Assembly (NCBI RefSeq): GCF_030704535.1
Contig: NC_081821.1
Coordinates: 6,773,001 to 6,837,000 of the forward strand
From: Vitis vinifera
Lineage: Eukaryota; Streptophyta; Magnoliopsida; Vitales; Vitaceae
Direction of reading: 5' to 3'
DNA: 64,000 nt
The position numbers and the translations under genes are program-made. The first letter of the stretch is position 1. Each line of letters begins with the position of its first letter. Shown one piece after another: positions 1-55,892 of this stretch. The notes below the pieces were generated by a model. That model was not told where the DNA came from. It was given only the letters and a program-made list of their open reading frames with translations, and searched no databases.

Positions 1-1932
1 TGTGATGCTGCTTCTCACTTTCCAAAAGTTTTCGTTCTACACCTTTCACACCACACACAAGCACGCCCTGATTCGATGCTGCTTCCCATTTTCCAAGAAT
101 TTTGGTTCAGTTCCTTTAACAACACACTCAAACACACCCTGAGAATAGTCAGCTTAGTATTGCTGCAACCTGGTGAGTTAGATCCTACCTAACCCGTGAG
201 ATCCCAAACTTGGATTAGGAAATTTTAACTTGATCTAAGATTGTGTTGAGCTTGGATTGAGGCTTTAGCCTTTGGGTATCTATAAAATTTACTAATGATA
301 GGTATATATCATTTTTCATTTTATAGCACTCAAAAATTGAAATAAAAGGAAAAAGTAGATAGAGTTAGATATAAAAGCAAAGAGAAATGAACTTTTATAT
401 TAAATATATGCACGATAGATAGGATAACTTAATTCATATTAATTCTAATTTTTTTCTGTCATATAGAATTATGACCATATTAATCCTTCTACAAATTTTT
501 ATTTTAGCTTGTAACATATTTGATCTTATATTTATAGATGCATTATTTTGAAAAAACTATTTATTTTCTTAATATTGTCTTAATTAAGTAACTATATGAT
601 TGATGATCCGACAGATTTGACTTGAGTTGAAAATTTCTAATCTGAAGTGAGGTATGATTGGGGTTGGGTTGACTTCTGATCTATCAACCCACCCGAGTTG
701 CAGTTCTAATTACTGTTTTGTTTCTCCATGGGTTGGAATTGGGATTTTCTTCATGCCACTCCACAGTGCTGTGCATGCAAGTTATGATGCATCTTAAAAG
801 CTAGTATTCTCAATATATAGTAAATTTCCAAAAAGAGCTTTGTCATATTTTGTAACAAACCTTTGCATCAACTCAAATAGAAATTCTCAGTATGAAAGAA
901 GAATTTTGCGGCTTTTGTAGAATAGACATACCTCATCAAACATCTAGGTGGCTTATTATTTTTTATTTTTAGAAATAAAAACTGCTATATAAAATGATAA
1001 CTTATAAAAAGATAAAATTCAACTTGTGTTCAAAACTCTTTTCAAAATTTTAAAAATTTGAGGAAGTGATTTTTACTTAAATGTCAAAATTTTGAAAATG
1101 TGTTTTCAACCTGTATTTTGAATAAGAATTGCAACATTTTATACATGACATTCTATCACTAAAAATAAAAAAAAATAGAAAATGTATCCATACAGGCGTT
1201 CTTATGCACTCACTTTTTCATTATCTTTTTTGTTTTTGTTTTTTGGCCTTCTCGTTAATATCTTGGTTCTTGTTTGATTTTACAGCAAAGGTGGCAGTCC
1301 AAGCAGAGTGGAGAAGGTGATTGGAAAGAAATCCAAATTTTAAGAAAAGTTACAGTAAGTTAAATTTGTGAGCAACTTGTTGGCTTTGTCTTTATGGTGC
1401 AAGATTATTGTGTAAAAAAACTGAACATGGGTTCCCACTCGGAGGTGTGTGATTGTGCGAAGAGCTTTTTCAAAAGTTTCTTTTGCTTTTGAGTGTGAGA
1501 GAGTATATGTACATCCATAGGATTTGAAGTTTCATCGTACTGCAATCATTCATTAATTTTAATTTCTGCTTGGTTTCTATTATGAGAGTATAATTTCTGT
1601 TAAGTTCCCAGATTATTGCTAATCACTAGTTGGTTTTCCCTGCATTTGGACTCTTCTTTTTTCATATGCAAAAGTCTCTAAAGTCGTCGTAAGCCTAGGT
1701 GAAAGCCAGACACCAAACTGGAACCACTCAACATGATAATCGTTGGGCAATGATGAGGAGAATACAGAAGATCAAAGCATTATTCTCAAAAGATGTTATT
1801 CTGACAGGCATTTCATTATTTTAGTTGCTATACAGTACATTTAGGACATTATTACAAAACGCTGCCACGCTTCAATTAAATGTATGAGATAACAAAACAT
1901 GGTATTTTTACCTGTGTAAATATTAGAATCTA
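1..1932. other. Intergenic stretch downstream of the ABCA2-type gene
   Basis: No coding region is recognised. The first 143 bases hold two imperfect tandem copies (period about 71 bp, starting near 4 and 75) of a stretch beginning GATGCTGCTTC. The rest is AT-rich and contains only short chance ORFs. The last few hundred bases are probably 3' UTR of the minus-strand transporter that ends at 1933. Confidence 0.5.
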
Positions 1933-4528
1933 TCATCGATCATCATTTGAAACAATTTGATTTGGGTCAATCACGACCCCTTGAACAGTCCTTGACCTTC
2001 TACGCAAAGAAGGCATCTGTGGGATGCCAGGAGGTACTGGAGTCTCAGGCGAGTGCTCGGAAATGCAGAGCGAACCAGTATCATCTTGTTCCCATTGTAC
2101 TTCTACCATAACTCCTCTGGGATTCTCTGCAGACTCTGTTCCTGGAATTCCCACAAATCTGGCTCCCACAGGTACCTGCATTTTCATTGTAAGAGAGGAG
2201 AAAAAGGTAAAAATAAGTCAGTATAATTGTTTTTTGAATAAGGAGCTTGCTATGTTACGATGACTTAAGGTTGGAAAGAAAAAAATTGCTACAGAAAATT
2301 ATTTTATATATAATTAATTAATTAATTAAAAATTTATGTATTTTAAAATTATTTAATTTTTGTATAAAAAAAAGTTAAAATAAGTCAAATAAATTTGAAA
2401 TAATAAATAAATATAATTTATTGATTTTAAAATTATTTTTTATTTCTTTTTTTTCCCTATCATTTTTCTTCTCTCTTCTCTCTCTTTTATTTTGTATTTT
2501 TATTTTTTTGTATTTTTCCTCAAATATTCTAGAGCTAAACATAGCCTAATATAAACTTTACCTACCTGAACCACTATGCCGGATGTTAAAGTCAGAGATT
2601 CCATGCTCCCTTCAGCTGCGGCACTTTCTAGCTCTGCCTTCTTTGCAATATTCAAGAAAACTTCTTCAAGAGTTGTAAGCCCCAGTTGAATGTCTGCTAT
2701 TCCAAATTCTGTTTCTCTATCTTGGAGCTCCCCAAAGAATTTCTATTGAGGAATATAAAAGCCACGAAGGAGAAAAGAGAAACAAACACCAAATTCTACT
2801 CAAAATCTTCATTGGTAGCCGTAGTAAAAAATCCTGATAAATTAGGTTGTTCAGAGTAAGTATATAATTAAACAAGGCAAAAAATGAGAGAGTCGTCTAC
2901 CGTCAACCGTGCTTCTCGATCATGGGGAATGACAAAAGTCAAGAAGGCCTTGTTCTCTTCTTTGGGCACTATATCCAAATGCTGTAACAAAACATTGAGA
3001 AATCAGAAACCAAGCTTTGGGGGGGGGGGGCCAAGGATATGTGTAAGCAACCTTTATTAGTTACACATACATATTTAAAGAATTGCTTTACGGCCTCATG
3101 ATAAGGTGTGGTGACTGCATCGTCATTGGGGCGAGTGTTTCCATTCGTGCTTCCAGTGAAGCTTACATGAGCAATAAAACCAGTTCCAAACCGAGACTTC
3201 AACCTAATTGAGGTCCCAATGCAACGAAGCCTACCCTTTGCCATGATTCCAATGCGGTCACTTAATATGTCCGCTTCTTCCATTGAGTGTGTAGTTAGGA
3301 CAATGGCACGTCCTTTCTTTGCATTCTCTATTATGTCCCACACATGCCTCCTCGTTATCGGGTCCATGCCAGTTGTCTACAAATCAAAAGAAACCTCGTA
3401 TGAAACAAATACATTAAAGAAACATGCAGAAAGGAGAAGTCTCTAGTCTGCATACCGGTTCATCCATAATGACCAACTTTGGATCACCAATTAGTGCTAT
3501 AGCAACACTAAGGCGGCGTTTCATTCCTCCACTATAACTCCCAGCTCTCATTTTGGCTGCTTGGGTGAGTTTCACCTCTGCCAATGATTTTTGAGCAACC
3601 TGCACAAAAGTAGAAGCATTTGTTCCAGGAAATATGAATAGAAGAGAGACATTCTACTGACACGAGTTCATCAAGAATGAAGTGAACATCTATATTGGTG
3701 TAAAAACTAATAATTGGACAAAAACCAAGTCTTCCAATAAATAGGAAAAATCAAGTAGGTGAAGGCCCCTTATTGGGGTTTGCTCAGTACATACTGATTT
3801 GACTGAAGAAGGGGGGAGGCCTTTAATGCTAGAGAACAGCTCTAGGTGCTCTTGACCAGACAAAGAATTCCAGAGAATGTCAAACTGTGAAAAGAAAAAA
3901 ATTTAAGTCAGTCCTCTTGAAAACTAGATTTATTTGAATAAAGATGAAACCAAAGAAAAAAAGAAAGGGTCACCTGGGGACAAACTCCTATGATTCTTCG
4001 AATGTTTGACATTCCTACAGAGCTTCGAATGGAATATCCATATATTAATGCTGTCAACAAGACGGTTCATAATGTAGCTCAAGTACATTCCATTAACTAC
4101 ATAGAAGAAATTAATAAACACGAAAATTGAACATTACCATCACCCTCAGTGACTGGGGTAATTCCAGTCAAGCAATTAATTGTAGTAGTTTTTCCAGCTC
4201 CATTGGGTCCAAGGAGACAAAATAGTTGATTCTTTGGAAAGTTCACCCATAATCCCTGAAGGTAATTTGCAAATATGCAGTGGTTACAACATTGACACAT
4301 ACAAAATAAGATATACCCCTTTGTCATCTTGCCTAACACAAGAATTTTCAAATGGTGGAGATGGCACGCACACTTGATCATCTGAAGATCTAAAAAAATA
4401 CATGAAATTAGATGAGAAGTGTTCCCCCCTGCACCTACTTGCATTTGAGAGATGGGCCTCTCACACCTACCTTTTATTTTAACAAAGGACATGTCTTGAG
4501 AGATGCTACACAAGTTACAACAAACAAG

Positions 4529-4572
<44 letters not shown>

Positions 4573-7500
4573 GAGGGAAAAAATAACTAAATTTTCTTAG
4601 GTCAATGTGGCATAAAATCTGCTAATGGAAAACATCAAATTGTAACTCTTTGCATCACTGTTCATGAGTAAAGTTAAGTTATCACAAATAAATAAATCCC
4701 CTATAATAGTGACAGATAGTACTACTGAATATCCCTGTAAAATAAGTTCATTACCTTGAGAGCATGGTAAGGCGAAGTCTTCTTGCATTTACAGCAACCA
4801 ATATTAGTTGTCCCAGGATATGTTTTTGCAAGACCGCATATCTGAACTGCAATATTTGGATCAGCTACACCTTCCCTTCTTTGTTGTTTTACTTTGTTTT
4901 CCTCTTCAAGGACATCTTCATCATCTGGAGTGATGTCCTCCAAAGATGGAATAGAACCTATGCAACTACAAATGCCACCCTCTAAACGAAGAAACGTAAA
5001 GATGGGTCAGGTCAGTTATAACTACCAGCCAACAAGGAAATTCATGAGCATAGATTAAAATTTTGATCTTGATTACCTTCCACCTTGTTTCCACCTCTTC
5101 CTGTCCAATACCCAGGCTTCAAAAAGTAAAATAGAGATTTCCTCACACCCGATGAATTTGGGATTATATTATCGAAGTAGATGGCCAAAAGAAACCATAG
5201 AAAAAATGTGGCTGTGAGCCATATATAGATATCATTCTGTCAAGAATATAAGAAGTGAGAGCATAATATAAAGGATAAACCTTAATAATTACCTTTCATG
5301 ATTAAAAATAAAAGTGAAGAAGGAATAATGAAAGAAAGTAAGTGAAGAGCAAAGAAAAGAAAATGGAATGCCAAGGTGATGTCTTAGTAAAAGCTACAAG
5401 CAACCTAAATTGTCATTGTTAGGATTTTGAGCTTTAATGCATAAACATACAATTGTAATGACACAATCCAAATCATTTGGTGCACAGTCTGCTCGTTTAC
5501 TCCAGCTAATCCCAGGATCTTGAGGAGTGGAAGTTGCATCAGCAAGCAATGATAGAGCTTCAGCAAGAAGATTAGGAGGGAATAGTGACCATATAATCCG
5601 ATAGAAATTAGGAAAGTTGTTACTATAGGGAAATCCAAATATTGTAACAAGCTGCAATGACCAAATTGAATTTATTAGTGATGACTGAGTGTGTAATTTC
5701 CATTCCATAAATTTAAGGGGAAACCTTACCTGTGAAAAAAATCCGAAGATAAAAATGCAAAAACCAATAATTGTAGATGAAGATGACTTGCTTATGAAGG
5801 ATGACAGCATGAAAGCATAACCAATCTAGAATCACAAGCCAACACGATGAATGAATGATATATATGCTGAAATAGGATTATTTATGTCTAAGAACAAATA
5901 AAATCAATGACCAATTTAGGATAATAAGAAAGAAAAATTACCATATTGAGTTGGAAAAGGAAGAACAAGAGGAATACAACTGAAAAACTGTTGTTTAAGA
6001 AAAAATCAAACTGGAACATCATTCCAAAGAGAACAATGAAAAGTGAAGCAATAAGTATGATAATTCCCTCCCATGTGAGCCATGACAACCAGTAGGCAGA
6101 ATCATAAAGACCCATCATTGTCATTGCCTATGAAGTAAAACACAAAAATAGCAAACATGAGAATAATTCCATAACATGAGAATAATTCCATAAAAGTGCA
6201 TGAATGCTGAAATTTTTATTAAATAGGCAGATTCGAACAATCAATACCTGGCGAAGTTTTAGTTCCTTCTCTGTGATCAAGGAACTAATTTGGATAACAA
6301 AACCAAACATGGCAATTGCAAGGAAAAATGTTGGACCTACTACAGCCACAACAGAGAACTCTTCTATTGCAGGGTGTGCAAATTCCTTAAATCTAGCAGT
6401 CCAGTTGAAGTTTGGATCTGAGTATGCAAGAATAAAATGTATGTTTAAGACAAATGGATATAGGGACATCATAGCATTGGCCAACAATAGAAGATTTTTA
6501 AAAGACAACAAAAATAAGGGTGAAAATTTGATACCTCCAATTAGAGACCTAGCCATTTCACGTTCTGCAACAATTTGGAGTGGAATTTGAAATTTGAATG
6601 TGGGATCTTCATAATGCCCTCGTTTACTAACTGGAGTAGAATTAGTTTGTAAGCCATAGCTAATTACAGTAGCATTTGTTTCTACAAAATGCAGCGCTCC
6701 TGGGCAACGCATTGGATCACTATATAGCCATGCATCCACTTCATCACGTGTACTAAATGATTTGACCTAGGCAAATAAAGCAAAGATAGAATGGTTATGT
6801 CCTTTAATGTATGGACTTTCTCATAAGTGTTTCATTAATAAGGATTTGCTTAATGCATAGATAGAAACAAAAGAAAGAAATAAAAAGAAAACCAAAAGGA
6901 AAAAGCTTTAGAAAGGTAAAACTCATGAGTAATAATAAGAGATGTTGGCCATGCTTCTTCACTGTCCAATAATTTACATTTTATCTCACCTTTTCACTCA
7001 ACTCTTAAAGAAGGGGCCAATATAAAGTATGTGAAGAAGAGTCATGGGTAAGCACACACTTTCATTGCCTTTGTTTCCCAATCCTTATTTTTAGAAACAC
7101 CAACTTTTTTTTTTTTTGTGACACAGACGACCTAAACCTATTAAGTTATTGTTTGATAAGTGCTCCACAAGACTTATCATAACCTTCTTGAACTATTGAC
7201 GAAACCATCAATAAGATATTCATTGAGAGTGACATTAAAATTTACTTTGTTTGGCTGCAGGAAATAATGCTAGCCAAGAAAAAAGAGTCTCATATTTTCA
7301 AAGAGCAAAATGGAGCCACGAAGAGAGCAGCTATATTTAAAATGGAAATTGCTTGAAAAAAAAGGTGTCAAGGTAAACAAAAATTTTAAAAGCCATTTTA
7401 CAATGACTTGACATCACCAAATAACTCAAGGGCATTGTATACCAATTTATGAGAAAACACAGATTATTCTTCCCATCTCACATTTAACTTTACATTTTCC

Positions 7501-9709
7501 CTTTTGTAGATAAACACAAGAACACAGAGACTGTCACAAAATGAACAATACAAGTCTCTGTCAATTTAGCTACGGACAAAAGCTTTATTTTACTATGAAC
7601 CTTAACTTGTAGCAGGAAGGATATAACTCACAAAGCTTAACTTAGTTAGTGTTTGTTTTTTTGACTTAATGTTGAATGTAATTTGTTTTCAGACTTCAAA
7701 TTATTTGTTTTTAACAATTTTTTTTCTACTTTTTATTTATTTAATTTTTTTTTATTGAATAGAAAAAGCCAAAATATTTAGGTGGTGTTTGTTTTTTAGT
7801 TGAATAGAAAAAACCAAAATATTTGACTTTTTTTATTCAACTAAAAGTAAACTGTTGACATCGTCTAATGTAAGTAAACTGAACATATTGATAACAAGTT
7901 CACTTTAGTTATATTGGATGATGTTAACAGGTTACTTTTAGCTTAATAAGAAAAGACAAATATTTTGATTTTTTTTATTCAGCCAAAAAACAAACACCAC
8001 CTTAGGTTTTTGCCGAATGCTAAAGATAACTTTTTGAAACAAACCAAAACACAATCTCAACACAACCTTCACCTATTAATGCATAATACTTAATAGAAAT
8101 AAAATAATAAAAAACAACTTAATGCTTAATACTATCGAGTTGTATTTAAAGTTAAATTAATTTAAATTCTATTTAGATTTAAGTGAAAAAAAAAAAAAAC
8201 CACCTTAGTCTTATTTGATTAACCCAACTAAACTTGGAAAATAAATTTTGGTTGCCGATAAACCGACTCAAATTTTTGTTTGTCTCTTTATTATCAACAA
8301 TAAAACATGGTAGAGATCCAAATAAAACCAATTTCCATCATCATATATTGTTTGCAGGAGTTGGTTAGCTAGTAAAATCAGCTAAGAACCAGAACCACAG
8401 AAAAAATAACTGTTTCCATTTTCTTTTATTTTTTTCTGTTTTTCCAGAGGCAAGTCTTAATGTTACTAAGGAAAAATCCTAATTCTCCTTTTAATTGCTG
8501 AGAGAAGATAGAAAAATAACAGAATCTTAAAATTCTTTCATCATTTAGGATTCACGAGAAGAAAAAAATTCCAGTTGAATGACCAAATGTAATTATTTAG
8601 TTAGTTTGAGGAAATTATCCATAGTTTGTCTTGAGGAAATTCTCCATTTTCTCAGCATGATAGCAACCAAAAAAAAGCCTAAATATAACAGAAAGAAAAA
8701 AAGATTTCCACCAGCATGCTTCCCTACAAAGAAATATAATTTTGATGGTTTCGACGGAACTATTACTATGAAATATAATTTTGATTGTTTCAAGTGAACT
8801 ATTACTGTGAAATACTTGTTTATCACGAAACAAAAATGGTGAAAATTTTCAATTTTTCTCACCTCTTTTTTTTTAATATTTTCCTCCCGTTTCTCATAGA
8901 CCTAGTAGAAATAATTAGAAGTTTTAGTTACTCACTAAAACTTGAGAGCACGGGTTTATTTTTAACACACAAAAATCATATTTCCACTTGTTTTCTTTTC
9001 TTTTTCCTCACAACCAAACAGACCAAAGTGAAAAATCTAAATCTCACGAATAATCAAAATTCACAGTAATAAAACTGGTTCACAGAATCAAACAGCAAAA
9101 TTATCTTCCATAATACACTTCACAATTGATTCAGCCGGCTGTTTCCAGATAAAGCTATGGAAAGGGGAAACAAGAAAAAAGAAAAAGAAAAAGCTAAATT
9201 CTCATTAGTTATTACCGAGAAAGAAACATTTCATCCTTCATTCCCTTTCTTTTTCCTCCATTTTCTCTCTAACCAAATCACGAATAATTGAAAAAACAAG
9301 AGACAAAAAAATCCGAATCTTCGAAATCCAAAATTCATACCTTATCGGAAGGAATTGGGCGGCCAGGATTATTGGTCATGATTCTATTGACAATAGACTG
9401 GATCTTAGCGCTTCCATTACCGCTCCAAACAAAGTCGAAGCAAGGAAGCTTTGTGTAGAATTTATCCTCGCAAGGAGGAATCGGAAGAGAGACCAGAGGC
9501 TTAGGATCAAAGACGTTTTCATACTCTGTAGAAGAGGAGAACCGAGAACGAATGGCTTTCCCGATACAGAAGATGAGGAATATGAAGAAGAGAGACGAGA
9601 AGAGTTGAAGAAACGTCGCCCCCTTGTTCCGCCATGAGAGAAGGAAATTCTTCTTGAACAGTGCACCGAATTGTTGGATTAGCAGTGGCAATCCTCTCTG
9701 CAAATCCAT
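1933..9709 (-). CDS. ABCA2: ABCA2-type half-size ABC transporter (ABCA subfamily), 16 exons
   Basis: Membrane ATP-binding-cassette transporter of the plant ABCA (ATH) group: one transmembrane domain followed by one nucleotide-binding domain. Coding exons on the minus strand, read by splice sites and frame: 9709-9341, 6766-6535, 6417-6248, 6127-5942, 5825-5730, 5651-5451, 5236-5077, 4981-4755, 4255-4138, 4050-3974, 3884-3795, 3599-3456, 3376-3071, 2981-2901, 2742-2566, 2175-1933. They sum to 2877 nt, predicting 958 aa, close to the family's usual 930-985. A first hydrophobic segment lies near residues 32-52, with several more in exons 3-7. Walker A GPNGAGKTT is in exon 9. The signature YSGGMKRRLS is in exon 12. 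Walker B DEP-TTGMDP spans exons 12/13. A Cys-rich stretch (GCCKCKK) precedes the NBD. The start MDLQRGLPLL resembles the ABCA2 N-terminus as I know it. The lipid-related substrate is family inference only. Confidence 0.93.
3024..3033. repeat. Short G homopolymer in ABCA2-type intron 13
   Basis: Run of about ten G bases within an otherwise AT-rich intron between exons ending at 3071 and starting at 2981. Its only note is as a likely length-variable site. Confidence 0.6.
4532..4571. repeat. (AT)n microsatellite in ABCA2-type intron 8
   Basis: About 40 bp of AT/TA dinucleotides interrupted once by a G, inside the intron between exons 4981-4755 and 4255-4138. Confidence 0.9.
7649..8204. mobile_element. 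Probable outer Tourist-like (PIF/Harbinger) MITE, interrupted by another MITE
   Basis: The left end GTGTTTGTTTTTTTGACTTAA and the right end (read on the minus strand GGTGGTTTTTTTTTTTTTCACTTAAA) are imperfect inverted repeats, and TTA lies at both outer edges (7646-7648 and 8205-8207). A TTA target duplication is the hallmark of PIF/Harbinger elements. The better-preserved MITE at 7781-8001 sits inside. The low-complexity T tracts make this call tentative. Confidence 0.45.
7781..8001. mobile_element. Tourist-like (PIF/Harbinger) MITE, 221 bp, in ABCA2-type intron 1
   Basis: Terminal inverted repeats of about 70 bp start GGTGGTGTTTGTTTTTT on both strands, and TTA target duplications lie at 7778-7780 and 8002-8004. 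There is no coding capacity. The TTA duplication, the GGTGGTGTTTG terminus and the small size are those of Tourist-like MITEs mobilised by PIF/Harbinger transposases. Confidence 0.85.
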
Positions 9710-11234
9710 TGATTTCTATCTTTTGCTAAAGCTTTTAGTTTTAGCTGCTCTATATCGTTGAAACTGCTTTCTGATTCTGCCATTTATATGCTTTAGGCGC
9801 GTAAAACGCACCGTTTCAGCGCTTCTTCGAAATCACTCCGTCGACGTTTTTGACGTGTCTTTTCGCATCCTGTCTCATACTACATCTTTTATCATTTAAA
9901 CTTCACTCAAAACATGGCATCATACATTTTTAAGTTTGAAATTCTATCTTATAAATTGACATTTGAAAATAAATTTAAAGTATATTATAATAGGGGCATT
10001 ATGGTCATTTGAGTGGAAAATGGTGAAGGGCATTTTGGTCTTCACAAAGAAGGACGTGTGAACTTTGATGTGTCCAATATCAAGAAGGAATCGCGTGTCC
10101 GTTCACATTCTGAAAGCGAGGTGCTGGAATACGATTTTGCGGTTACTTGGAAGGTTGGCAAAGTTTAAAAATTGGTTGTGTTTACATCGGCCTGCATCTA
10201 ACCATTTGAAAAGTAGTTATTACTCTTGACCGTTAAGCCTTCCACCATTGGGAGATTTACGGGGGATAGGATTGTATTAAAAGAATTTTCTTGTTGATTA
10301 TTTGAGACACGGATGGAGGAGCTAAAAGCCAAACAAAACACCGGTTTGATCCGCGTTCCCATTTCCTTTAATCGAAACCTAATTGATTGATTGTATTTTT
10401 AAATTGAATGTATTTGGGCATTAATCATATTTGTGAGGGGAATTTTTTTATAATAATATTATTTTTAAAAACAATAATAATAGAAATATTATGATAATAT
10501 TTAGTAATTATTTTTTAAAATAATTTTAAAATAGTTTTTGAGAACAATTTTTAAAAATATTGTCTAATATTTTATAAAATAAATAAAAAATTGAAATATT
10601 TTTTAATATATTTTAAAAAATAATTTTTATACGTAAAGTTTTGTTTTTTTTTTGTTTTTAATAATTCTCCATATTGTAGATTATTTTTTAAAACAATTTT
10701 TAAAAAGAAATGAAAATAACTGAAAATAGTTATCGAACAAATTTTATATGCTTAAAAGAAAAATAATTTTACATGTAGAAATTATTTTTAGAATTATATA
10801 TTTAAAAAAAAAACATTTTCTCATAATTGGTATCCCATTTTTCATCTTTAATTTTTATTATATTTTAGGTAAAATTATCTTTTCAAAATAGGATTTGAAG
10901 GATTTGAATATGCATACAATTTATAAATTTATATTAATGATTCTTTTTTTATATATTTTAAAAAATACACTAAGATATGAAAAAAAAAACCATCTATTAG
11001 GGAAGTAGAACATTTTTCTTTTAATAGACTATATTCTAAATCCACTTCAATATTTCCTTGTATTTTTGCTTTTGACTATTGAATTCCCGCCATTTCATTT
11101 CAGCCCCCCCTTTCTCAACGGCTAGTATGTAAATTAGCAACATTATACAAATCCACTCCACTCCCTTCACTCTCCTCGAAGAAGACATCAACGAAAAATT
11201 AATCATGCTCCTCATTTCTATTTTGTTGATGTAA
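9710..11234. promoter_or_regulatory. Divergent intergenic region between ABCA2-type gene and PPR gene 1
   Basis: About 1.5 kb between two head-to-head genes, so it must contain both 5' ends. No single core promoter element is convincing. Bases about 10430-10800 are an AT-rich, self-complementary stretch. It resembles the hAT-like repeats at 33.1, 35.4, 36.1 and 40.6 kb (AACAATTTTTAAAAA motifs, with GTTATCGAACAAATTT near the right edge). Confidence 0.4.
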
Positions 11235-13091
11235 ATGGAACGCTATCTCATAGATTTACTTCACTGCTCTCTGCCCATAAACCAGTTGAAGCAAATCCAA
11301 GCTCTCATCATCATAAAGTACCTCTCTCTCACCCCACTTTTTATTAGAAGGCTATTGAACGCGTCCTTTATCCAATATGCTCGCCAAGTGTTTGATCAAA
11401 TTCCTCACCCAGATCAAGGCGTTCATTGTTCTTTCATTACTGCCTACTCTAGACTTTCCTTGAACAATGAAGCTCTAAGAACATTCGTTTCGATGCACCA
11501 AAACAATGTCCGGATAGTTTGTTTCACAATTCCGCCCATTTTTAAGTCATGTGCTTCGTTGTTGGCTATTGATGTGGGAAAACAGGTTCATTCGTTGGTT
11601 ATACGTTATGGGTTCCACTCAAGTGTGTTTTGTCAGAATGCTTTAATTAATTTCTATGCTAAAATTAATGACTTGGGTTCTGCTGAATTGATTTTCGATG
11701 GGATTTTGGTGAAGGACACGATTGCTTATAATTGTTTGATTTCTGCTTATTCAAGATCTGGTGAGGTTTTAGCGGCTCGAGAACTTTTTGATAAGATGAG
11801 AGATAGGAGTATTGTTTCATGGAATGCTATGATCTCTTGCTATGCTCAGAATGGGGATTATCATAAAGGGTGGATAATTTTCCAAAGAATGCAGGATGAA
11901 ATGTGTGAGCCCAATGAAATTACTTTGGCCACTGTACTCTCTATTTGTGCTAAACTTGGGGATTTGGAGATGGGTTTGAGGATTAAGAAGCTTAATGACA
12001 ATAAAAATCTGGGTTCAAATATGATTGTTTCAACTGCGATGTTGGAAATGTATGTCAAATGCGGGGCTGTTGATGATGGGCGTCTAGTATTTGACCATAT
12101 GGCCAGAAGGGATGTTGTTACATGGAGTGCCATGATTGCAGGTTATGCCCAAAATGGGAGATCAAATGAGGCCTTAGAGCTTTTTGAAAACATGAAAAGT
12201 GCACAAATTAAACCTAATGATGTTACACTTGTTAGTGTTCTATCAGCTTGTGCTCAGTTGGGTTCAGTAGAAACTGGTGAACGCATTGGAAGTTATGTGG
12301 AGAGTCGAGGCTTAATTTCAAATGTTTATGTTGCCTCAGCGCTACTGGGTATGTATTCTAAGTGTGGAAATATTATAAAGGCTCGCCAAATATTTGATAA
12401 GCTGCCTCAAAGAGATAATGTTACTTGGAACTCAATGATTATGGGGCTAGCTATTAATGGTTTTGCGGAGGATGCAATTGCTCTTTACAACAGAATGAAA
12501 GAAATTGAGGTGAAACCGAATAACATAACATTTGTAGGACTAATGACAGCCTGCACCCATGCAGGTCATGTTGAACTGGGTCTTGAGTTTTTCAGAAGTA
12601 TGAGGTCAGATCACAACATTTCACCAAATATTGAACATTTTGCTTGTATTGTGGACCTCTTTTGTAGATCAGGAAGACTAATAGATGCCTATGAGTTTAT
12701 ATGTAGGATGGAAGTGGAGCCCAATGTTGTAATATGGGGCACATTGTTGAGTGCATCCAGGATCCACTTGAATGTAGAGCTTGCTGAGCTTGCAGGGAAG
12801 AAATTACTAGAACTAGAGCCCGATAACTCTGGGAACTATGTCATTCTTTCTAACATATATGCCAGTGCCGGCAGATGGCAAGAAGCACTGAAGGTGCGGA
12901 AGTTGATGAAAGATAAGAGGGTGCAGAAAGCAGCTGCGTATAGTTGGGTAGAAGTGGAGGATAGGGTGCATAAATTTTTAGTCGGTGACACATCCCACCC
13001 TAGATCTGATGAGGTTTATAGCACCATTGATGGTTTGGCATTGCTTTCGACTTGGGTTGGTTATGAGTTGGATTTTGAAATAGAGGCCTGA
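11235..13091 (+). CDS. Pentatricopeptide repeat protein, PLS class with E/E+ tail (618 aa)
   Basis: Organelle RNA-binding helical-repeat protein. The single uninterrupted exon carries repeated motifs of PLS type, such as VVTWSAMIAGYAQNGRSNEA, NVTWNSMIMGLAINGFAEDA and PNNITFVGLMTACTHAGHVE, from roughly residue 50 to 500. An E domain follows (NYVILSNIYASAGRWQEALK). An E+ stretch (YSWVEVEDRVHKFLVGDTSHP) ends at about residue 610. No DYW deaminase domain is present. Proteins of this class usually specify C-to-U editing or other RNA processing sites in mitochondria or chloroplasts and recruit a DYW protein in trans. The start is the first ATG after an immediately preceding in-frame TAA. The N-terminus has no obvious transit peptide by eye, so the target organelle is open. 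Confidence 0.92.
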   Translation: MERYLIDLLHCSLPINQLKQIQALIIIKYLSLTPLFIRRLLNASFIQYARQVFDQIPHPDQGVHCSFITAYSRLSLNNEALRTFVSMHQNNVRIVCFTIPPIFKSCASLLAIDVGKQVHSLVIRYGFHSSVFCQNALINFYAKINDLGSAELIFDGILVKDTIAYNCLISAYSRSGEVLAARELFDKMRDRSIVSWNAMISCYAQNGDYHKGWIIFQRMQDEMCEPNEITLATVLSICAKLGDLEMGLRIKKLNDNKNLGSNMIVSTAMLEMYVKCGAVDDGRLVFDHMARRDVVTWSAMIAGYAQNGRSNEALELFENMKSAQIKPNDVTLVSVLSACAQLGSVETGERIGSYVESRGLISNVYVASALLGMYSKCGNIIKARQIFDKLPQRDNVTWNSMIMGLAINGFAEDAIALYNRMKEIEVKPNNITFVGLMTACTHAGHVELGLEFFRSMRSDHNISPNIEHFACIVDLFCRSGRLIDAYEFICRMEVEPNVVIWGTLLSASRIHLNVELAELAGKKLLELEPDNSGNYVILSNIYASAGRWQEALKVRKLMKDKRVQKAAAYSWVEVEDRVHKFLVGDTSHPRSDEVYSTIDGLALLSTWVGYELDFEIEA

Positions 13092-13917
13092 TGAGTGGAA
13101 AAGCTAGAAATCATAAGAAACCTGCTGGTGCAACTGCTAAAGTGTATTGGAGGTTATACCTAGGACCTTTTTTTTGTTTTCATAGTTTGGATGGAGTTTG
13201 GCCACCCTTTTCTCCTGCTGTCTATCCAAGCAAAAGAGGATTAAAAACCAGGATAAAGTTTTTGTTTGGCTACCATTCTTCTTTGATTATACTGTATCTT
13301 AATTCAAATAGTAGACAGTGAATAGTCTGGATTTCCTGTAAGTTTCTAATGCCTTTCAGTCTCGGGAGAGGAGATGGATTATTCCAACTTCTAATATTAT
13401 AAATTTTTAATCAGTTAGATGAAAATTAGTTTCATTTATCTGAAATGCTGTTAATAGAAATGTTTCATGTGTAGCAGCAGAGTCTTGCAGCTGGTAAGGT
13501 AGTTCAGCCGGTGATAAATCCTGGTAAAGGTATATATCACTTAAATAGAATTTATTTATTTATTTAGTTTAACGAGAAATGAGTCACTTCTATACTGAAA
13601 TGCTGCTAATACGTCGTTTTTTTATTTTCTTTCCTTTTTTTCCCCTTGGTTTAAAGATTATCTAAATTCTCAAATATTCACGTTGATAACTCTTTTAGTA
13701 TTTGCTGCAACAGACTTGATCATTTCTGGCACATAATTGGGACTTAATGATCATAGATTCATGGGATTTGGAAGGTACTATCTATTAATCCATTGATTAA
13801 TGATTTTATCGATTTGATTCTTATTCAGCTACATGGATAATATACTTAACCTGTTCTAACACTCAAAAGGCCCAATTAGATTTCAGAACAAATACAAGGT
13901 TTCCACATTCTTGGAGC
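13092..13917. other. 3' flank of PPR gene 1
   Basis: Probably 3' UTR followed by unannotated DNA. A 76-codon ORF begins with the ATG that overlaps the PPR stop codon but shows no recognisable family, and I regard it as untranslated. No other gene is seen. Confidence 0.4.
13910..13917 (+). repeat. 8-bp target-site duplication, left copy (CTTGGAGC)
   Basis: Identical to 14726-14733 and exactly flanking the terminal inverted repeats of the hAT element. Eight base pairs is the hAT duplication length. Confidence 0.8.
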
Positions 13918-14301
13918 CAAGGATGAAAATATCGATAATCACGGATATATCGGTACTTCGATTTTACGGATATATCGGCAGATATTTTGGAAAAAAATAT
14001 CGATAAGTTTAAAATTGTTAAAAACTCATAAAAATATAAGGAAAACCTCATAATAATATAATTAGAAGTATAATAGATATTTTATTGAAAATTTTGATAT
14101 ATGTATAACATAATTTATTATATTTGATAATAATATCGTATACATCAATAAAAATATGAATTTTATAAGTGTACATTTATTATTAAATTACATATAATAT
14201 TATGATATTTAATTATAATATGTCTAATTTTAAAATATATATTAATATTAAAATATGATCCATTTAATTTAATTGTATTAAACAATATAAAATAAATTAT
14301 G

Positions 14302-14326
14302 ATATATATATATATATATATATATA
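14302..14326. repeat. (AT)n microsatellite inside the hAT element
   Basis: Uninterrupted AT dinucleotides, about 25 bp. Confidence 0.9.
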
Positions 14327-14559
14327 ATTTTTTAATATTTAATTAATTATTAATGATATTAAAACATTATGAAGAAAATTATATAATTTTTATATTTTTG
14401 GTAATTAATTTAAAATTTTTTTGCATTTAATTATAAAATTATTATAATTAATTTGCTCTTTAAAATATTCTTTTAATATTTTCTTTATATAATGAGTTTA
14501 AGTATATATAAGTTTAGTACACATTATATAATAAGGGCAAGTTAATCCAAATGGCAAGT

Positions 14560-14659
14560 GGAATGAACCTCAAACCTTCAAATCCCTTTGGAAGCAAAAG
14601 GGGAGGCGCAATGAATCCCAAACCTTCAAATCCCTTTGGAAGCAAAAGGAGAGGCGCAC
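14560..14659 (+). repeat. Two ~50-bp tandem units near the right end of the hAT element
   Basis: Each unit runs from AATGAA(C/T)C(T/C)CAAAC through CTTCAAATCCCTTTGGAAGC and ends in GAGGCGCA. The two differ at only a few bases. They are subterminal, where hAT transposases normally bind repeated motifs. Confidence 0.75.
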
Positions 14660-14725
14660 TAGCACGTTGATTTCACTGCACAAGCGCACTAGCCCAAAAG
14701 AAATATCGCGACATTTTCCTCCTTG

Positions 14726-14764: not shown

Positions 14765-14773
14765 AAAACCATT
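14765..14773 (+). repeat. 9-bp target-site duplication, left copy (AAAACCATT)
   Basis: Identical to 16141-16149 and immediately outside the long terminal inverted repeats. Nine base pairs is the usual Mutator-family duplication. Confidence 0.9.
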
Positions 14774-16140
14774 GAGTTTAAGACCAAAATAATTTATTTG
14801 TAAAAAAAAATGATAAGAATAGTATCCATTTGAAAATATTTGTCAAAGTAGTCTTCTTTGTCCACGTAAGCATCCACATGGATTTTAAGTGTAAAAAACC
14901 ACCGTTGGTGACTGTGGTTTTAAAACTTATAGAAATTTTCTTAAAACCACAGTTACAAACTGTGGTTTTATAATTTCTCTTAGAACCACAGTTACTAACT
15001 GCGGTTTTAAAAGAAGTCTCCTTAAAACCACAATTACAAACTGTGGTTTTACAATTTCCCTTAAAACCACAGTTAGTAACTGTGGTTTTACAATTATTTT
15101 TAATCTTAATGGTGTTATAATTTTAATATTATTTTTAAAATATTTTTTTATCAAAACAACCATAAAACCACAGTTACTAACTATGGTTTTACTAATGGTG
15201 TTGTAATTTTAATATTATTTTTAAAATAATTTTTATCAAAATAACCATAAAACCACAGTTAGTAACTGTGGTTTTACATTTTAATATTATTTTTAAAATA
15301 TTTTTTTTATCAAAATACCCATAAAACCATAGTTACTATAACTATGGTTTTAAAAGAAATATTCTTAAAACCACAGTTACAAACCGTGGTTTTACAACTA
15401 TTTTTAATCCACACCTGTTTTAATAGTATTGTAATTTTAATATTATTTTAAAAATATTTTTTATCAAAATAACCATAAAACCACAGTTACTAACTGTGGT
15501 TTTACAATTATTTTCAATCCACATCTATTTTAATGGTGTTGAATGGTGTTGTAATTTTAATATTATTTAAAAAAAATTTTTTTTTATCAAAATACCCATA
15601 AAACCATAGTTACTATAACTATGGTTTTAAAAGAAGTATCCTTAAAACCACAGTTACAAACTGTGGTTTTACAATTTTCCTTAAAACCACAGTTAGTAAC
15701 TGTGGTTTTACAATTATTTTGATAAAAAATTACAACATAATTGTAATTTTGATAAAATAATATTTTAAAAATAATATTAAAATTACAACACCATTAAAAT
15801 AGATGCGGATTGAAAATGATTGTAAAACCACAGTTACTAACTGTGGTTTTAAGGGAAATTGTAAAACCACAGTTTGTAACTGTGGTTTTAAGGAAACTTC
15901 TTTTAAAACCGCAGTTAGTAACTGTGGTTCTAAGAGAAATTATAAAACCACAGTTTGTAACTGTGGTTTTAAGGAAATTTCTATAAGTTTTAAAACCACA
16001 GTCACCAACAATGGTTTTTTACACTTAAAATCCATGTGGATGCTTATGTGGACAAAGAAGACTACTTTAACAAATATTTTCAAATGGATACTATTCTTAT
16101 CATTTTTTTTTTACAAATAAATTATTTTGGTCTTAAACTC
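14774..16140. mobile_element. Non-autonomous Mutator-like element (MULE/foldback), 1367 bp, packed with palindromes
   Basis: Long terminal inverted repeats begin GAGTTTAAGACCAAAATAAT on each strand and extend about 380-390 bp (left about 14774-15153, right about 15747-16140) with only scattered differences. A 9-bp AAAACCATT duplication flanks the element. TIRs of hundreds of bases and a 9-bp duplication identify a Mutator-like element. No transposase is encoded; the ORF at 15803-16120 is just translated repeat. About 18 copies of a 27-bp palindrome, typified by AAAACCACAGTTA-C-TAACTGTGGTTTT (written as arm, centre, arm), are spread through it. Five lie in each TIR and eight in the middle, separated by related AT-rich spacers. 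The whole element can fold on itself as one large hairpin made of small hairpins. Confidence 0.88.
14895..16017. repeat. Array of about 18 palindromic units within the MULE
   Basis: Units start near 14895, 14943, 14981, 15024, 15063, 15164, 15249, 15323, 15367, 15477, 15600, 15645, 15684, 15824, 15863, 15905, 15946 and 15991. Arms are 13 nt (AAAACCACAGTTA and its complement) around a 1-nt centre. Variants include AAAACCATAGTTA with a longer centre (15323, 15600). Spacing is irregular, from about 38 to 140 bp. Units 1-5 mirror units 18-14, as expected from the TIRs. Spacers in the middle share GGTGTTGTAATTTTAATATT and TTTTTATCAAAAT. It is not a CRISPR array: the repeats are palindromic, spacers are related to one another, and the host is a plant. 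Confidence 0.9.
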
Positions 16141-16149
16141 AAAACCATT
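16141..16149 (+). repeat. 9-bp target-site duplication, right copy (AAAACCATT)
   Basis: Matches 14765-14773 and abuts the right MULE terminus ...CTTAAACTC. Confidence 0.9.
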
Positions 16150-53145: not shown

Positions 53146-54359
53146 TCACTCCTGCACAGCTTCCACCTTGGAACGGTCCATTGCTATTCCTACCTTAGAA
53201 ACCACATAGCCTAAGAAATTCACTTCAGTAAGCCAAACCTCACTTTTGTCCAACTTCCCATACAACTGATGTCTTCTTAAAGTTCTAAGGGTGGTCACCA
53301 AATGTTGCTTATGCTCCTCCAAACTCCTTGAGTAAATCAAGAAGTCATCCACAAAGACAATCACAAATTGATCCAAGTACGAAATATTCTATTCATTAAA
53401 TCCATGAAAATAGCGGGGGCATTAGTTACTTCAAAAGGCATGACTAAGAATTCATAATGCCCATATCTCGTTTTAAAAGCGGTTTTAGGAACATCTTCTT
53501 CCTTAACCCTCAATTGATGATACCTAGTTTTCAAGTCAATCTTACTAAAATACTTCGCACCCTTCAACTGATCAAACAAGTCATCTATCCTTGGAAGATG
53601 ATACTTATTCTTCACAGTAACTCTATTCAACTTCCTATAGTCAATACACAACCTCAAGGTGCCATCCTTCTTCTTCACAAACAACACCGAGGCTCCCCAT
53701 GGCAATGTACTCGGACGAATAAAATCCTTACTCAACAATTCCTCCAACTGAGTTTTCAACTCCTTCAACTCAAGAGGCGCCATCCTATAGGGGGATACTG
53801 AAATAGGATCCGTTCCTAGGTAGACTTCAATAGAGAAATCAAACTCTCTATGTGGTGGTAAACCTGGTAACTCATTTGGGAATACATCCTGTAACTTTCT
53901 CACCACTGAAATTTCTGTAATGTCCTTTTGGGCTTTCTCCTTACTATGAAGGCAAGTTAGGAAATTTATTGATCCCTTCCTCAACACGTACTGATAATAC
54001 AGATCGGACTGCGAAAAAGGCAAACTAACACACTTCCCTCCAACAAAGCAAACCTCAAATCCATCTGGTAGACAAAATATTATCCTACGGTGATGACAAT
54101 CAATAAGCGCTCTATACACCATCAACCAATCCATTCCCAAAATAACATCATACCCAATCATGTCCAAAATCCTCAAATCCACCTTAAGTGTTCTATCCGC
54201 CAAAGTAATAACACACCCCTTGCATATTCTATCAACTCTAGAATTCGTACCCATAGGAGACTCGATAAGTAACAGATTTCCTACTCTTTCCGTTTTCAAC
54301 CTCAATGCATTAGCACAAGATGCAGAAATGAAAGAATGAGTTGCACCATTATCAAACAA
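53146..54359 (-). pseudogene. Ty3 protease and reverse transcriptase, frameshifted
   Basis: The first frame, 54359-53361, begins with an aspartic-protease motif in which the usual D-T/S-G reads D-N-G (DNGATHSF). It continues into RT with [28 protein letters not shown] and [12 protein letters not shown]. The second frame, 53376-53146, carries the RT active site FVDDFLIYS and LGYVVS. The overlap marks a frameshift near 53370. The protease substitution and frameshift both argue for loss of function. Confidence 0.88.
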
Positions 54360-54592
54360 AACATGTACTCAAAAGTACCATATACCAAAATCATACCTTC
54401 CACCAAAAGGGAGTCATCCTCTAGCTCTGTTGGGGTCAAGGCAAAACCTCTTCCTACCACCTGCCTTCCCTTACCTCTAGCATTCGACCGCTAAGAAGAA
54501 CAGGTCTGACCACTCATGGTAGTTGTCCTGGCTCCCTGCGCTGCTGGGGGTAAATGTGGCGTCTAGTAGTAAGACAATTAAAATTGAGGGGG

Positions 54593-55446
54593 TTAGAAAG
54601 GCACTACCGACTGCTGCTGAGAACCTCCCTGAGACTGAGGTTGAGTCTGCTGTGCGCCCCGCAATAGGCAAGCCCTCCATAAGTGGTCTCCCGTTCCACA
54701 ACCATAACATACTCTAGCAGTAGCCGCCCTCTGAGCACTCTGCTCACCTCTTGCATAGAACGAAGAATGCCCCTCAAACTGCTGACTCCTCTGCCTCTGC
54801 TGCGAGCCCTGGGATCTCCTTTGGGAACTTTCCCCCATTCTTAGTTTCACTTTTCTATTCCCCTTTGCTCCCGAATTTGGTTGGTTTCCTCAATGTCCTG
54901 CTCCACCAACAAAGCCCTCTTAACCAACTCAGAATAGTCCCTTATTGTCAGTGGGACTAATCTATTTCGAATGGCAGGCCTCAACCCCTACTGGAACCTC
55001 CTAGCCTTTTCTCCTTCCTCATTGATCATCCCCAAGGCGAATCTGGACAATTCCGAAAAGCGTGACTCGTACTCCAGCATCGACATAGTTCCTTGGATGA
55101 GGTGCTCAAACTCCATCATCTTGGCATGCTTAGCCACCTCTCCAAAATACTTGCCTAGGAAGATTCTCTCAAATTCCTCCCAGGTCATCACTTCTGTGTC
55201 GTACACTATTTTCATTGATTCCCACCAGAAATCAACTTTGTCAACAAGCATGTATGCCGCCAAACTTACCCTCCTTTCCTCAGGTGTGTCCAATCCTACC
55301 AGAATTCTTTTAATCCTCCTCAACCAATGCTCAACTGCTTCCGCATTGGGCTCTCCATTAAAAGATGGAGGTTGTATCACCATGAATCTCTTCATCGCCT
55401 CCATCTGGCTCATTACTGGCCTCTCAGAGCGGCTCCTCCTATGCAA
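54593..55446 (-). pseudogene. Ty3 gag with zinc knuckle, interrupted
   Basis: The capsid-like part (55446-54988) contains PPSFNGEPNAEAVEHWLRRI and WEEFERIFLGKYF. It is followed by an in-frame TAG where a Gln codon is expected, then a Gln/Ser-rich part and a CCHC knuckle (CYGCGTGDHLWRAC) in 54850-54593. The order is that of plant Ty3/Gypsy gag. Confidence 0.88.
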
Positions 55447-55892
55447 GTGATCTGAATCCTCTTAGCCCTGGGTACCTCCAGACCTCTTGGAACCCTGACC
55501 TCTCATCAACTGGGCAATCTCTCTCAACTCCCTTCTTACTTCTCAAAGTTCTTCTCTTACTGACTCCAACTCCTCATCTCTCTCAAATCTTCCTCTTCTG
55601 GTCCTTCCCGCCATTTCAAATTGAACAAGCCCTAATTCAACCACACTTCCAAGGTGAGCAAAACAAATTCATATGTAACCATTTAGCAACTTCAACAATT
55701 ATCAAAACTTTCACTTTCACACAATCTCACACAATCTCAAACAAGGTTTTTCAAACATCAAGAATCAACAATTAAATAATTCAATTAATAATCAGCTCGT
55801 TAGCTAACACATACAGAAAATCATAACATAACAAAACATAACAATACACACAAACACGCACAAACACCGACCCTAAGGTATTATTGCAACCT

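Follow-up and report, generated by a model that had tools for sequence, protein, structure and literature searches.

Why a transposable element should carry one palindrome many times over, and what such an array could serve, is the question raised by an element at positions 14774–16140 of the window (the whole stretch of grapevine, Vitis vinifera, DNA analyzed here: 64,000 nucleotides, C17:6773001–6837000). A sequence-only reading had described it as a Mutator-like element (MULE) built from palindromes with a MYB core, and had suggested that conversion, or selection on a hairpin or a binding site, maintains them.

Structure of the element

That reading proposed a 9-bp duplication, inverted termini of ~380 bp, and 18 palindromes, five per terminal inverted repeat (TIR) and eight inside, all of which we confirmed (Table 1). 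The target-site duplication (TSD) AAAACCATT is exact on both flanks, a gapped alignment of the left 383 bp with the right end gives a 94% match (97% complementary over 304 nt without gaps, arms 14802–15105 and 15808–16111), and the palindromes were counted as 5 + 8 + 5. Both ends of the element read GAGTTTAAGACCAAAATAATTTATTTGTAA inward. The assignment to the MULEs also stands: the element has a ~9-bp TSD and long TIRs, as TIR-type MULEs do, and relatives with the same TIR encode a MULE/MuDR transposase, as described below. A likeness between the TSD and a palindrome arm was taken as chance, and AAAACC, from the outer arm, occurs in no other TSD seen.

Table 1. Features of the element and its target-site duplication (positions in the window)
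Feature	Position	Strand	Description
Target-site duplication, left copy, AAAACCATT	14765–14773	no strand	exact 9 bp
Left terminal inverted repeat	14774–15156	+	unique tip 14774–14894, then five palindromes
Five palindromic units, left TIR	14895–15089		starts 14895, 14943, 14982, 15024, 15063; 39–48 bp apart
Interior	15107–15713		eight palindromic units; starts 15164, 15249, 15323, 15367, 15477, 15600, 15644, 15683
Variant palindrome	15323–15351		C-to-T in both arms, 3-nt loop; block-duplicated at 15600–15628
Right terminal inverted repeat	15747–16140	−	inverted copy of the same (L-type) end
Five palindromic units, right TIR	15824–16018		starts 15824, 15863, 15905, 15944, 15992
Target-site duplication, right copy, AAAACCATT	16141–16149	no strand	exact 9 bp

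Spacers in the interior are AT-rich and for the most part longer; this region corresponds to the L-end array found in the autonomous-type copies described below, and it contains a block duplication (15295–15407 and 15572–15684, 92%). The left and right TIRs differ by nine substitutions, all transitions, which fall on 3 of 135 palindrome positions and 6 of 197 others and thus show no arm–spacer difference. As judged from translations, the element has a PPR-like frame (11235–13091) on one side and ABC-transporter-like frames on the other, and remnants of a Gypsy-type retrotransposon polyprotein lie on the minus strand at 53361–55461. A 48-bp tandem repeat of two copies (93%) occupies 14562–14658, ~110 bp before the insertion.

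The consensus unit is a 27-bp palindrome in which 13-base arms, AAAACCACAGTTA and TAACTGTGGTTTT, flank one central base. A scan tolerating up to six mismatches in all found 18 palindromes in the element and none at 1–14700 and 16201–64000, and no half-site with two or fewer mismatches was present elsewhere in the 64-kb window; the 18 palindromes of the element are not due to chance. Ten single palindromes were predicted to fold as hairpins, as they would because they are palindromic. Rfam gave 83 matches at E ≤ 1, each below the gathering score of its family, and these were rejected as generic hairpins. Searches of the GTDB and viral collections returned no matches, and a literature search with the sequences themselves returned chance-like matches in 10 papers, none of them on transposons by title.

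The family in the grapevine genome

The sequence-only reading had suggested looking for other copies with the same TIR, and the genome holds many: the tip of the element (GAGTTTAAGACCAAAATAATTTATTTGTAAA, hereafter the L tip) occurs 87 times at three or fewer mismatches, and its reversed control does not occur. We paired these 87 tips, one further L tip with an indel, and 19 tips of the type (R) that marks the other end of autonomous-type elements. This gave 43 paired copies, namely 26 L-L copies (the window copy among them), 17 L-R copies of 0.7–18.6 kb and no R-R copy, with 19 L tips and 2 R tips left over; these numbers are not an unbiased census, since the L pattern came from an L-L copy, which favors L-L copies, and the R pattern from three R ends. 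Two more L-R elements (L041 and L046) have R tips too diverged for the R pattern. A DNA similarity query of the genome scored the best 40 of 235 candidates, the pattern counts hold for the stated mismatch limits, and the fetched set leaves aside 18 further single-tip stretches.

Both classes show traces of transposition. Exact 9-bp TSDs flank 24 of the 26 L-L copies, including that in the window (L024 has one mismatch and L017 four), and six of the seven L-R copies checked, the seventh having one mismatch. The palindrome array was present in all 26 paired copies with two like ends and is thus a hallmark of the family, as had been supposed. Its unit number ranges from 5 to 19 per copy across the family and from 6 to 19 among L-L copies, whose composite TIRs with variable numbers of subrepeats are of the foldback type.

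Genome-wide (495.6 Mb, 21 contigs), the palindrome occurs at 358 places with at most one mismatch, and the reversed pattern at none. Among the 50 places listed, four lie away from L tips, and all four are diverged family copies; at the places examined, the palindrome is thus associated with this MULE family. These diverged copies (L052–L055) were each reached from one perfect palindrome: the two L-type tips of L055 are 81–82% identical to the window tip, and in L052 one tip is at 79% and a partial second tip at 83%.

Every part of the element in the window has its counterpart in the L end of autonomous-type elements. It consists of two copies of one end of an element whose other end is free of palindromes, a feature that the sequence-only reading had not seen. 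The transposase and plant mobile domain (PMD) proteins of the autonomous-type elements gave no hit in the 25 other L-L copies. A long-arm breakpoint at 1772/1774 bp, measured from the L036 L tip, is common to 20 of the 26 L-L copies; two copies have an older breakpoint (1594), and four, the window copy included, are without that segment. Of 13 inner L-L junctions read, seven end at a palindrome center and six in a spacer, at short shared stretches. Elsewhere, the two most similar copies share 99.1% identity over 1,476 bp, and the closest relative of the window copy 93% over 847 bp, which suggests recent movement of the family and a greater age of the window copy.

Autonomous-type elements with one palindrome-bearing end

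An autonomous-type partner sharing the TIR, which the sequence-only reading had also suggested looking for, was found in the form of elements of 9.8–11.9 kb with a transposase and a PMD gene. At sixteen loci (L033–L048) the fetched stretch includes a single L tip, and many of these loci have long frames. With hmmscan, MULE (PF10551), DBD_Tnp_Mut (PF03108), and SWIM (PF04434) domains exceeded the cut-off in L038 and L044 (L tips matching that of the window copy at 96.7% identity over 120 bp), and a PMD (PF10536, E 6e-53) was detected in the second gene of autonomous-type elements. Part or all of the transposase/PMD coding sequence is present in 14 of the 16 loci, the exceptions being L040 and L046. 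Three elements, of 9,756, 10,197, and 11,928 bp, were followed to the far end, and all three have exact 9-bp TSDs; the transposase of the 10,197-bp element is split over two frames. The family may already carry a Repbase name.

The two ends of these elements are unlike. The R tip is 68–71% identical to the L tip over ~105 bp, and in all seven R ends analyzed no palindrome unit was found inside the element near the R end. The L arrays hold 8–16 units in ten transposase- or PMD-bearing loci and 5–7 in four further L-R elements. One unit in L035, 8,053 bp from the L tip, lies by its position outside the element, in the flank. The transposase and PMD frames read toward the L end, which places the array downstream of the PMD gene.

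A second noncoding array, a 152-bp tandem repeat of five copies, lies between the transposase and PMD genes of L044 (4875–5646). At C19:7924953–7944632, tip positions place two autonomous-size L-R copies (9,831 and 9,819 bp) head to head, with L tips 30 bp apart.

Divergence of arms and spacers

The sequence-only reading also held that the arms were kept while the spacers drifted, which agrees with the variation among copies. In 31 of 68 TIRs, those with four or fewer gap columns (the other 37 have unit gains or losses or belong to diverged or truncated copies), diversity was 0.028 in the tip, 0.035 in arms, 0.072 in spacers, and 0.170 in loops. The arm–spacer difference was significant overall (P = 0.0085), at A/T sites (P = 0.009), and at C/G sites (P = 0.014), with the columns treated as independent and the relatedness of copies ignored; arms and tip did not differ (P = 0.18 and 0.86).

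The arms are not uniformly conserved. Of 896 arms, 735 retain the outer AAAACC unaltered and 483 the MYB-like CAGTTA, both counts including states fixed in particular units. The "MYB core" is thus the less conserved half of the arm, contrary to the emphasis of the sequence-only reading. CAG/CTG is a CHG methylation site, which may speed the decay of CAGTTA.

C-to-T and G-to-A are common among the minor variants, making up 68 of 138 site-wise changes. Across the 31 TIRs the C-to-T share falls from CG (0.121) to CHG (0.071) and CHH (0.042), and within the arms alone from 0.073 to 0.058 and 0.035. CHH sites in spacers reach 0.089, and the order of contexts is partly confounded with region. The order CG > CHG > CHH is that expected of methylated plant DNA, and its occurrence in these TIRs suggests long silencing.

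Paired changes and the hairpin

Selection on a hairpin would be expressed as changes in both arms, and the sequence-only reading had pointed to such a case, AAAACCATAGTTA...TAACTATGGTTTT. The paired change does exist, in units 15323 and 15600, but both lie inside the duplicated block; a compensatory meaning is not supported, and the change probably represents one inherited unit type. Within the palindromes of the window element, arm mismatches numbered 20, against a mean of 21.3 with shuffled partners (P = 0.34). The left TIR and interior alone gave 12 against 14.7 (P = 0.07), and 12 against 13.2 (P = 0.23) after removal of one duplicated unit. In the stems of the five TIR hairpins of 28 distinct TIRs, no compensatory change was found: 0 of 65 pairs had changed on both sides, compared with 1.1 after shuffling and 1 in each version slid by 1–3 columns.

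A broader count pointed in the same direction, with exceptions. Among 448 units (the window element not included), 30 doubly changed cells were found at all positions, against 34.6 expected under independence of units that are not in fact independent. Position 8 departs from this pattern, with 17 units changed alike in both arms (4.9 expected). Ten of the 17 are a single unit type with a 3-nt loop, which occurs in the transposase-bearing L036–L039 and in the L-L copies L021 and L025, and whose paired change we take to be old and inherited; the other seven have a 1-nt loop. Smaller excesses were seen at positions 5 (3 vs 0.7), 6 (1 vs 0.2), and 12 (5 vs 2.5), near-equality at position 10 (3 vs 2.6), and shortfalls at positions 2 (0 vs 5.2), 7 (0 vs 1.5), 9 (0 vs 2.2), and 13 (1 vs 14.8). 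The excess at position 8, together with the smaller ones at 5, 6, and 12, runs against a reading without hairpin selection. Taken as a whole, structural selection on the hairpin is not supported. Ongoing conversion among the units, the other process invoked by the sequence-only reading, is not favored either, because the units keep private states across copies (31 TIRs, by eye).

Origin and role of the palindromes

We consider it rather probable that the window element is a non-autonomous MULE in which the L end of a ~10–12-kb autonomous-type MULE is joined to a second, shorter copy of itself in inverted orientation, with the palindromes as putative binding sites. Membership of the family, the existence of transposase-coding relatives with the same TIR, the restriction of palindromes to the L end, and the past mobility of L-L copies are established. 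The palindrome is conserved as a sequence and not as a pairing, which points to a dimeric DNA-binding protein, and the absence of compensatory pairs fits a double-stranded site rather than a hairpin. The palindromes would accordingly be bound as double-stranded DNA by a dimeric protein that the element itself encodes, with the transposase as the likeliest candidate. The L end may be a strong end usable at both termini and moved in trans; aberrant repair would have produced an inverted duplication of this end, and the resulting L-L forms would then have been amplified. Counting against this explanation, the outermost unit starts about 110–150 bp inside the L tip, which is far for a core binding site. 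The palindromes are not needed at both ends, because L-R copies moved with a palindrome-free R end. The excess of L-L copies could reflect ease of formation or few founders instead of better transposition, and few founders are suggested by the breakpoint common to 20 of the 26.

The array could also be a passive by-product: slippage and template switching at palindromes would make it grow or shrink and would generate inverted L-L forms without selection. The block duplications inside the element, the spread of unit numbers from 5 to 19, and the absence of R-R forms, which fits the palindrome-free R end, are all in line with this, as are the inner junctions, 7 of 13 of which fall at a palindrome center and 6 in a spacer. 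However, arm variation, compared position by position across copies, is about half that of the spacers, and several units persist in diverged copies. Passive growth is, in our judgment, a secondary candidate with perhaps a third of the weight of the binding-site explanation.

We regard it as unlikely, slightly more so than passive growth, that the array serves as a docking region for an anti-silencing protein, as the VANC target repeats do in Arabidopsis VANDALs, in which case the PMD protein of the element (or the transposase) would bind it and counter methylation. The array resembles VANC target repeats (PMC5735166) in being noncoding, so far confined to this family, and variable in unit number; the autonomous-type element encodes a PMD protein; and PMDs borne by MULEs have been proposed as anti-silencing factors (PMC5418596; PMC8616336). 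The CG > CHG > CHH order of C-to-T changes, seen also within arms, is compatible with the same idea, but it is weakened by the spacer CHH value and the partial confounding with region. Moreover, the VANC motifs described in PMC5735166 are arrayed in one orientation and are not palindromes, and DNA binding by the PMD is putative here. A bolder version, to which we assign a little less weight still, is that this grapevine MULE lineage evolved a sequence-specific system of its own for anti-silencing or for controlling transposition, in which a PMD protein would act on a one-ended array, convergent with VANC/VANDAL of Arabidopsis, and L-L copies would exploit a double dose of the target.

It seems improbable that the hairpin itself is functional and that an L-L element acts like Mu killer, a transcript hairpin feeding siRNA against the autonomous L end. 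In the predicted fold of the whole element the ends pair over nearly their full length (−750 kcal/mol), the C-to-T spectrum is methylation-like, and maize Mu killer is described as carrying one MuDR TIR twice, as an inverted duplication (PMC3440606). Nevertheless, a near-perfect inverted repeat folds in this manner whatever its function, and the small palindromes show no compensatory change.

Amplification of host MYB sites for transcription can be largely set aside: each consensus arm contains CAGTTA/TAACTG, which we take to be a match to a plant MYB site, but this motif is far less often intact than the outer AAAACC, and the array lies downstream of the coding frames and not at their starts.

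Comparison with known systems

Arrays of subterminal repeats are already known. Muta1 is reported to have nine copies of a 12-bp repeat in a long TIR (PMC5225508); in piggyBat, an imperfect palindrome occurs three times on the left end and not on the right, according to PMC11707139, and the same source describes a palindromic sequence of piggyBac bound by two C-terminal domains, one per monomer. Muta1 and Tm1 (PMC3169594), both foldback-type MULEs, share with the present family long TIRs, short subterminal repeats of variable number, 8–9-bp TSDs, and many non-autonomous copies. Their tandem motifs, as reported, are 12 and ~14 bp, whereas those found here are 27-bp palindromes at only one end of the autonomous-type element. 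The VANDAL21/VANC target repeats (PMC5735166; PMC10398659) are likewise noncoding arrays of a largely family-specific motif in variable copy number, although the VANC21 motifs are 9-mers in one orientation (PMC5735166), and here palindromes are combined with a PMD gene.

Among grapevine elements, the Mutavine MULEs (Benjak et al. 2008, PMC2528002) also have 9-bp TSDs where these were found, and table 4 of that paper gives several families of 9–11 kb with TIRs of 80–441 bp. Its main text does not contain "palindrom", "subterminal", "tandem", or "mobile domain", and the comparison is by the lengths in table 4 only. No description of this palindrome array was found in the literature on MULEs (those of grapevine included), subterminal repeats, foldback structure, PMDs, VANC, and Mu killer, as represented mostly by records without full texts.

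This family places unlike-ended autonomous-type elements, L-R deletions, and L-L derivatives in one genome, with L-L and L-R but no R-R combinations among the searched tips, and would make the role of MULE subterminal arrays testable by end swapping. It probably also provides, for grapevine, an example of a MULE in which the PMD is encoded by a gene of its own; PMD captures have been reported for grasses and Amborella (PMC5418596).

Mu killer of maize resembles the L-L copies in that one MuDR end is present twice, in inverted orientation, but according to PMC3440606 it is a locus that includes a portion of the transposase gene, whereas there are 26 paired L-L copies here, 24 with exact TSDs, and no coding sequence was detected in the 25 searched. 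The MULEs with multiple TIRs (Ferguson and Jiang 2012, PMC3310237) provide a parallel in TIR duplication followed by amplification; their extra TIRs are reported as mostly tandem, while in the present family an inverted L end replaces the R end. A tandem duplication of the TIR tip does occur at C16:20439159: in the L-L copy L026 (C16:20438659–20441485), a 114-bp stretch is repeated at positions 501 and 615, with an exact TSD at the outer tip.
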